From assembly GCF_037892605.1 (NCBI RefSeq), contig NZ_JBBKTU010000001.1:2976001-3040000 (forward strand): a DNA stretch of 64,000 bases. Direction: 5' to 3'. This stretch comes from Lacibacter sp. H407 (GTDB lineage: Bacteria > Bacteroidota > Bacteroidia > Chitinophagales > Chitinophagaceae). The notes beneath the pieces are model-generated. The model ran no database searches. It saw only the letters and a list, made by a program, of their open reading frames with translations, and was not told the DNA's origin. This document shows, piece by piece, positions 53,505 through 53,965 of the stretch. The first letter of the stretch is position 1; every line of letters begins with the position of its first letter. The position numbers and the translations under genes were made by a program.

Positions 53505-53579
53505 GGGAGCATAGCTCAGTTGGTTCAGAGCATCTGCCTTACAAGCAGAGGGTCCGCGGTTCGAGCCCGTGTGCTCCCA
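53505..53579 (+). tRNA. tRNA-Val (anticodon UAC)
   Basis: A complete cloverleaf is visible. The acceptor stem is GGGAGCA/TGCTCCC, the D-arm GCTC/GAGC, and the anticodon stem TCTGC/GCAGA with loop CTTACAA, so the anticodon is TAC. The T-arm is CGCGG/CCGTG with loop TTCGAGC, and the discriminator is A. CCA is not encoded. It has its own promoter and terminator. Confidence 0.97.
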
Positions 53580-53581
53580 CA
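53551..53581 (+). repeat. 31-nt direct repeat, copy 1 (tRNA-Val 3' end)
   Basis: The last part of the tRNA (T-arm and 3' acceptor strand plus CA) is identical to 53903-53933, 352 bp away, on the other side of the GIY-YIG gene. Confidence 0.95.
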
Positions 53582-53584
53582 AAG

Positions 53585-53617
53585 AAACCTCCGATTTATC
53601 GGAGGTTTCTTTATTTT
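53585..53617 (+). terminator. terminator of tRNA-Val
   Basis: A 10-bp perfect stem (AAACCTCCGA/TCGGAGGTTT) with loop TTTA is followed by a T-rich run. The same stem sequence appears after the second tRNA copy at 53935-53965. Confidence 0.9.
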
Positions 53618-53622
53618 ACGGC

Positions 53623-53877
53623 ATGACTTACACCGTCTACATTTTATATTCCATTTCGTTTGATAAATATTATGTTGGTTACACTGGCGATATAATTGCA
53701 GAAAGACTACGCCGCCACAATTCGAATCACAATGGATTCACCGGAGGTTCAGGTGATTGGATAGTAAAGTATACAGAGTGTTTTAATAATAAGCAGGATG
53801 CTATTCAAAGAGAAAAAGAGATCAAGTCTAAGAAGTCGAGAAAATACATTGAAGCATTAATAGCTCTTTCGGTTTAG
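53623..53877 (+). CDS. GIY-YIG nuclease family protein inserted at tRNA-Val
   Basis: The 84-residue protein is a minimal GIY-YIG domain. VYILYS (5-10) and YYVGYTGD (16-23) form the two short strands, RLRRH (28-32) contains the catalytic arginine position, and the glutamate-bearing helix QDAIQREKEIKSKKSRKYIEALIA follows. It is of the UvrC-N-terminal/YhbQ-like size, but in context it lies between two tRNA-Val copies. Its last codons (ALIALSV and stop) overlap the D-arm of the second copy. The ATG at 53623 is used because the longer open frame enters the intact tRNA. It probably nicks DNA and may belong to a tiny mobile element. Confidence 0.88.
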   Translation: MTYTVYILYSISFDKYYVGYTGDIIAERLRRHNSNHNGFTGGSGDWIVKYTECFNNKQDAIQREKEIKSKKSRKYIEALIALSV

Positions 53878-53931
53878 AGCATCCCGATTTACAATCGGGA
53901 GTGGTCCGCGGTTCGAGCCCGTGTGCTCCCA
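53861..53931 (+). pseudogene. degenerate tRNA-Val-like copy (5' acceptor strand missing)
   Basis: The copy keeps a D-arm (GCTC/GAGC), an anticodon arm with TAC in a TTTACAA loop, and a T-arm and 3' acceptor strand identical to the intact gene. The 5' acceptor strand that should pair with TGCTCCC is replaced by nuclease coding sequence (GCATTAA). The anticodon stem is 6 bp (TCCCGA/TCGGGA) rather than 5. It therefore cannot form a normal tRNA. It is followed by its own terminator. Confidence 0.85.
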
Positions 53932-53933
53932 CA
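53903..53933 (+). repeat. 31-nt direct repeat, copy 2
   Basis: Identical to 53551-53581. Together with the related terminator stems it bounds a 352-bp unit that contains the GIY-YIG gene. Confidence 0.95.
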
Positions 53934-53934
53934 G

Positions 53935-53965
53935 AAAAACCTCCGAAATTTCGGAGGTTTTTTTT
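53935..53965 (+). terminator. terminator after the second tRNA-like copy
   Basis: AAAAACCTCCGA/TCGGAGGTTTTT around an AATT centre, with a T-run. It shares the stem core with the terminator at 53585-53617 and may also stop the convergent DUF2911 gene. Confidence 0.9.

Follow-up and report, generated by a model that had tools for sequence, protein, structure and literature searches.

Within a 64,000-nucleotide stretch of DNA from Lacibacter sp. H407, analysed here in full and called the window, we found a tRNA-Val(UAC) gene that probably houses a minimal mobile element, one whose only protein is a GIY-YIG nuclease and which, in a homing-like manner, restores the tRNA gene in which it lives. Judged by sequence comparison, the insert is shown to split the tRNA gene and to bring a replacement part with it, usually the 3' part plus a terminator and, in a mirror form, the 5' part, so that an intact tRNA remains. 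The first-pass annotation of this DNA had already proposed that a very small element entered the tRNA gene. This stands in so far as a nuclease, a tRNA 3' part and a terminator are inserted, an intact tRNA lies upstream, and a relative has the empty site, but the annotation overlooked the hairpin in the second tRNA copy, the recurrence of the unit, its arrays, its mirror form and its ORF-less copies.

Layout of the tRNA-Val locus

The features of the locus are listed in Table 1. A direct repeat (53551-53612 / 53903-53964; 62 nt, 90% identity, spacing 352) spans the 3' part of each tRNA-Val copy and the terminator behind it; its first 31 nt are identical and end at the tRNA 3' end, and the two terminators have a common stem core. 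The GIY-YIG ORF (start ATG 53623, stop TAG 53875-53877) is the only ORF of at least 60 aa in the 352-bp unit, and PF01541 is the only Pfam match. The second tRNA-Val-like copy retains D-arm sequence from about tRNA position 7. It scores 26.9 bits with the Rfam tRNA model, under the gathering score of 29, and was not called when ARAGORN was run on the window. The following parts named by the first-pass annotation were recovered: the intact tRNA-Val(UAC) followed by a terminator, the 84-residue GIY-YIG gene, its stop codon inside the D-arm of the second copy, the identical 31-nt tRNA 3' end 352 bp away, and a second terminator with the same stem core.

Table 1. Features of the tRNA-Val locus in the window
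Feature	Position	Strand	Evidence
Intact tRNA-Val(UAC)	53505..53580	+	ARAGORN; Rfam 69.5 bits
Terminator-like hairpin of the insert	53581..53612	+	inverted repeat; missing at empty site L007
GIY-YIG nuclease gene, 84 aa	53623..53877	+	PF01541 E 1.2e-12; ATG directly past terminator
Left homology, tRNA-Val D-arm sequence overlapping ORF end	53860..53881	+	alignment; profile over 112 loci
Perfect hairpin TCCCGATTTACAATCGGGA replacing anticodon arm	53882..53900	+	alignment; 112-locus stem consensus; flank-defined test
tRNA-Val 3' part (T arm, 3' acceptor strand)	53903..53933	+	direct repeat; 31 nt identical to intact tRNA
Native tRNA terminator	53935..53964	+	aligns with empty-site relative L007

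Occupied and empty sites within the genus

The gene upstream of the tRNA encodes a protein that we used as query for the orthologous locus; 11 of 14 genomes of the genus yielded one, and a tRNA-Val was found at nine of these. G011, a member of the same genus with 82% protein identity, has an empty site, that is, a tRNA-Val and then a single terminator; in the window the distance from tRNA to terminator is greater by about 350 bp. The upstream tRNA-Val of the window is identical to that of this empty relative. Since the lone terminator of G011 aligns with the downstream terminator of the window (L007 alignment), the upstream one belongs to the insert. Because the terminator that follows the intact tRNA-Val(UAC) is unlike that of the empty-site relative, we infer that this terminator and the 3' part of the intact tRNA were supplied by the element, and that the 3' part of the second copy is the native one.

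A second case lies in the same genome, which has five GIY-YIG matches. At L002, a GIY-YIG gene directly follows tRNA-Asp and precedes a second, incomplete tRNA-Asp copy, in which TCCCCACAATGCTGTGGGGA replaces the anticodon arm on its 3' side. The tRNA-Asp stands beside the same gene in 12 of 14 genus genomes, one of which (L207) lies at a contig end with its downstream side out of view. Occupancy is thus patchy: the nuclease is present at the Val site in 1 of 11 fetched loci (the window's own) and at the Asp site in 1 of 14, and among the 25 loci scanned (11 Val and 14 Asp) tagged copies at the tRNA occur only in the two filled ones. One further weak tagged-copy match, at L209, is to tRNA-Ser and lies away from tRNA-Asp. 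As in homing elements, occupied and empty alleles therefore exist at the same site. The comparison takes one genome per species, so fresh insertions between strains are not visible in it. The first-pass annotation had suggested looking for relatives with and without the 352-bp unit and for other tRNA genes joined to a GIY-YIG gene and a tRNA remnant; G011 supplies the former, and L002 and the widespread loci described below the latter. It had also named two observations that would speak against it, a nuclease in all relatives at a conserved non-tRNA position and a degenerate tRNA copy at empty loci, and neither was seen, as the nuclease is not in all relatives and the tRNA of empty loci has no tagged copy.

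A different arrangement was observed at L008 (G003:C1:1875515-1880533), from another same-genus relative, where no tRNA-Val was called at the orthologous locus and a reversed tRNA-Val 3' part lies beside a 406-aa ORF that, by eye, reads like an integrase.

The nuclease and its family

The window protein belongs to the GIY-YIG superfamily and is UPF0213-like, as indicated by a PF01541 match above the cut-off, a structure match to UPF0213, and the residues Y6, Y17, G19, R28, H32 and E64, which are invariant in a 20-row alignment of GIY-YIG proteins and which we take to be catalytic. Its nearest solved relatives are UPF0213 (1zg2, E 6.7e-17) and SLX1 (E 9.4e-9), with the entries 1zg2, 1ywl and 7cq2. 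Both are of the same sequence family as the element protein; the UPF0213 structure entries are called hypothetical, whereas SLX1 is a cellular structure-specific nuclease. The tRNA-linked proteins found here are single-domain proteins of 79-100 aa encoded on bacterial chromosomes. The pN/pS of their genes is 0.21 for 47 adjacent array pairs and 0.20 for 42 between-locus pairs, and some copies contain stops. Searches of plasmids, phages and viral contigs, the last of these searches being made with one short peptide pattern, turned up nothing closely related to the protein and thus point to no vehicle.

The window protein, used as query at E 1e-3, gave matches in 60 of 98 family genomes. From the matches listed we took 69 loci (30 first loci and 40 stretches added by rank, minus one without a detected ORF; some matches near contig starts and the weak tail were left out). 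Among these, an intact same-strand tRNA lies at most 100 nt upstream at 48 of 69 and within -600..+500 at 61 of 69; a tagged tRNA copy is present at 48 of 69, and neither at 4 of 69. A profile of 20 proteins (E 1e-6) matched in 193 of 296 sampled phylum genomes, with up to 18 matches per genome; its seeds were tRNA-linked loci, a choice absent from the window-protein search. A scan of named species genomes confirmed 244 loci, and the titles of the best 80 of these 244, which were kept, are mostly Bacteroidota, with a few MAGs titled Ignavibacteria, Melioribacteraceae, Marinimicrobia/Neomarinimicrobiota and Calditrichaceae. The combined set of 237 loci comprises 69 from the window-protein search, 78 from the species scan, 83 from the phylum profile and seven others (L002 and six found via the hairpin pattern). 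In the stretch examined, 198 of the 237 have an intact tRNA within -600..+500, 171 a tagged copy, 144 both and 12 neither; the 66 without a tagged copy are so under the criterion used, by which 0 of 60 shuffled stretches were positive. The tRNA types at these loci include Ala, Met, Asp, Val, Arg, Asn, Lys, Ser, Leu, Pro, Phe, Glu, Gly, Cys and Ile.

The choice of tRNA follows the protein. On a FastTree tree of 190 proteins, which is built from 85 columns and has many weak forks, 48 changes suffice for tRNA type; shuffles need 124.7, and none of 200 came as low. For the tagged arm, the number of changes is the least possible both within Ala (3 for 4 states, two of which are single loci) and within Asp (2 for 3 states). 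At the level of sequence, the protein clade is thus shown to predict which tRNA, and which of its arms, carries the tag.

A sister GIY-YIG family (L294-L305) served as contrast, with a tRNA at 0 of 12 loci; its left and right flanks have common 13-mers at 9 of 12. Its member in the window's genome (L001/L294, G000:C1:4423382-4423693), the third small GIY-YIG gene there, has no tRNA and sits between two inverted pairs of GTCATYCCGANNNANGAGGRATCT, a palindromic repeat that is dispersed and, with up to one mismatch, occurs at 19 sites in the genome (backward control, 0). This family is perhaps a REP-like GIY-YIG system.

The hairpin tag

In the second tRNA copy, one arm is swapped for a conserved perfect hairpin (TCC[C/G][G/C]...), flanked by about 10-15 nt of tRNA on the left and by the tRNA 3' part on the right. 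Among 112 clean tagged loci, picked for perfect hairpins and matching flanks (8 nt left, 14 nt right), the stem T-C-C-[C/G]-[G/C] starts with T in 92 and has C at position three, C/G at position four and C/G at position five in 111 each; the stem is 5-8 bp long in 108 and the loop 3-4 nt in 100. When segments were defined by the tRNA flanks alone, 74 of 123 showed end-to-end pairing over 5 bp, against a maximum of 6 in 200 shuffles (mean 1.47) and 21 of 123 for the native segments, and several of the non-pairing segments hold the same hairpin with a shifted junction. On this test, ordinary pseudogene decay was rejected as the origin of the hairpin.

Leftwards from the hairpin, identity to the tRNA falls from 90% at -9 through 61% at -12 and 40% at -18 to about 22-32% at -23 and further out; rightwards it extends to the tRNA end and, at a lower level, into the terminator. 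In this profile, the locus selection favours the 8 left and 14 right positions nearest the hairpin. Lineages differ in the position of the tag, which lies in the anticodon arm in Val, Ala, Arg and Lys, in the anticodon loop or its 3' side in Ala, Met and Asp, in the T arm in Asp, Asn, Ser and Ala, and in the D arm in Pro, Phe and one Ala.

Two further observations concern individual copies. The tagged tRNA-Ala copies of L138, L139, L145, L148, L178 and L181 have, in addition to the hairpin in the anticodon arm or loop, another one at positions 57/63 in the T loop. ARAGORN calls the tagged copies at L034, L157 and L285 as tRNA genes, e.g. 'tRNA-Stop(tta)', so such elements may yield false tRNA annotations.

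Mirror forms and ORF-less copies

In the mirror order, a tRNA 5' part is followed by the hairpin, about 10 nt of tRNA, the nuclease gene and the intact tRNA. This form was found at L040, L041, L046, L063, L276 and L278, and with other hairpin sequences at L055 and L114. Of 237 loci, 32 have tagged copies, often in tandem, on the upstream side of the intact tRNA and no full nuclease match before it; L036, for example, has three ORF-less tagged units of 87 bp in tandem. Some of these copies may be decayed larger units, as at L018, where a partial nuclease match remains. When one tagged form was searched as a pattern in 296 genomes, 15 of them gave a total of 23 sites (backward control, 0). The fetched stretch contains no nuclease at 8 of these sites, three of which are near contig ends. 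All 15 genomes also carry the nuclease, compared with a base rate of 193 of 296. The spacers between ORF-less tagged copies (L026, L036, L172, upstream) contain GTTCTTT, which we take to resemble the boxA antitermination motif.

Alternative explanations

A resident GIY-YIG nuclease might break its own tRNA gene, with the partial copies arising as by-products of tandem duplication and nothing moving between genomes. We regard such purely segmental amplification as unlikely, although tandem arrays are frequent: 51 of 237 loci have at least two nuclease matches (counting only those longer than 200 nt gives 47), often in tandem and with periods of about 315-395 bp, and the two terminators of the window have the same stem core. 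A phage nuclease, SegB, amplifies tRNA genes in this way (PMC13096335). Yet the extra tRNA copies are broken, so tRNA dosage is not raised, and hairpins in different tRNA types and arms have similar stems, which in most cases are not those of the native arm. Amplification in place also fits poorly with the patchy occupancy beside a conserved neighbouring gene and with upstream and downstream terminator stems that differ at other loci, e.g. L002.

A role at the RNA level is quite improbable in our estimate. Tagged copies would then be transcribed as decoys or regulators, directed against tRNA-cutting enzymes or controlling the nuclease mRNA, and would have a host or anti-defence function rather than being part of a mobile element. 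Their location in the leader or 3' region of the tRNA unit would suit this, as would the anticodon triplet that is still inside the hairpin in 18 of 54 anticodon-arm cases, but most aligned copies lack the 5' acceptor strand, and the hairpin replaces D or T arms as well.

It is scarcely credible that the insert is what an ordinary tyrosine-recombinase integrative element left behind in the tRNA 3' end, as a remnant or an attachment-site footprint, since, although the insert is flanked by a direct repeat of the tRNA 3' end as in integrase islands, which do use the same tRNA genes (integrase family matches beside truncated tRNAs, 8 loci), its sole ORF of at least 60 aa encodes the GIY-YIG protein and not a tyrosine recombinase, and nuclease, hairpin and intact tRNA recur jointly at 144 of 237 loci; for the family this reading was already unlikely because a 300-400 bp unit recurs without a recombinase.

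Integrase islands do account for another feature. Truncated tRNA pieces that lie upstream of some nuclease genes and start at or near the 5' edge of the anticodon loop were considered as the left end or cut site of the element, and this was rejected, since a phage-integrase-type ORF adjoins the piece at 8 of 10 loci (L160, L149, L163, L166, L171, L123, L022 and L246), which explains the pieces by islands in the same tRNA. PF00589 was matched in seven; the cut-off ORF of L163 gave matches to the arm-binding and SAM-like domains alone. L045 and L255 have no integrase-type ORF in the stretch examined.

Proposed mechanism and relation to known systems

For the mobile element that we favour, the following scheme may be proposed. 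The nuclease would recognise roughly 20-25 bp around the tagged arm and would cut the tRNA gene or the tagged copy. Repair via the tRNA sequences at both element ends could then copy the element into empty tRNA genes and expand it into arrays; being so conserved, tRNA genes would provide homology arms that are portable. The cis-acting site would be the hairpin together with its short tRNA flanks, and the retention of these flanks in both orientations suggests that they are part of a bound site. Because the nearest solved relatives include the structure-specific nuclease SLX1, it is plausible that a hairpin or cruciform is recognised. Tagged copies that lack an ORF would be satellites, mobilised in trans. 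For the window, the stem core common to both terminators points to a close relative, or the locus itself, as the donor.

Known elements invite comparison. In REP/RAYT and IS200/IS605 systems, a small HUH/Y1 transposase acts with a short hairpin that defines the mobile unit, and ORF-less copies occur. A small nuclease, a short hairpin and ORF-less copies are present here too, the cis role of the hairpin being a candidate one; unlike in those systems, only PF01541 and no HUH/Y1 transposase was matched, and the targets are rebuilt tRNA genes. Fungal mitochondrial homing genes bring a replacement 3' end of the gene they invade, so that the insert likewise carries the missing end of its host gene, but they enter protein genes in mitochondria and are not known to have a hairpin-tagged copy. 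By analogy, the present element would work most like a homing element, in which an insertion disrupts its own target site. If the tRNA gene is the target, this is not so here, as an intact tRNA is present at 198 of 237 loci, and because it retains the presumed target sequence the insert would not protect itself as a classical homing element does. Hence we do not file the element as a homing element (no site disruption, if the tRNA gene is the target), a REP/IS200 system (no such transposase) or an integrative element (no recombinase).

The nearest known system is SegB of phages T4/T6, a free-standing GIY-YIG homing endonuclease located beside tRNA genes of many isotypes (PMC13096335). SegB cleaves tRNA-containing DNA and causes the tRNA and the nuclease to be amplified in tandem by recombination, which is ascribed to short sequences common to the tRNA 5' region and the nuclease gene 3' end (PMC13096335). 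It thus resembles the present element in adjoining tRNA genes and in its tandem amplification, and offers an experimental precedent for nuclease-dependent arrays; it differs in residing in phage genomes, and the passages of its report considered here describe no hairpin-tagged copy, rebuilt tRNA or ORF-less copy (PMC13096335). Our literature search, which covered largely open-licence papers (subscription papers were mostly outside its scope), gave no report of tRNA-linked GIY-YIG elements in bacterial chromosomes. A widespread family of tRNA-inserting nuclease mini-elements has apparently gone undescribed.

Implications

More tentatively, UPF0213-type GIY-YIG nucleases of Bacteroidota and relatives could power a new class of mobile DNA marked by hairpin tags, which would be to GIY-YIG enzymes what REP/RAYT and IS200/IS605 are to theirs. 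One branch would split, rebuild and tag tRNA genes, with ORF-less satellites moved in trans, and the sister branch (L001) would drive REP-like dispersed palindromes outside tRNA genes.

If the reading of a tRNA-resident mobile element is true, tRNA genes throughout the phylum would host one of the smallest protein-coding mobile elements, which would have found a new way into an essential gene without harm. Many of the small GIY-YIG genes in these genomes would thereby find an explanation, as would some false tRNA calls. Furthermore, the nucleases of the elements would be compact enzymes whose basis of specificity is directly testable, because the preference for tRNA and arm tracks the protein clade.
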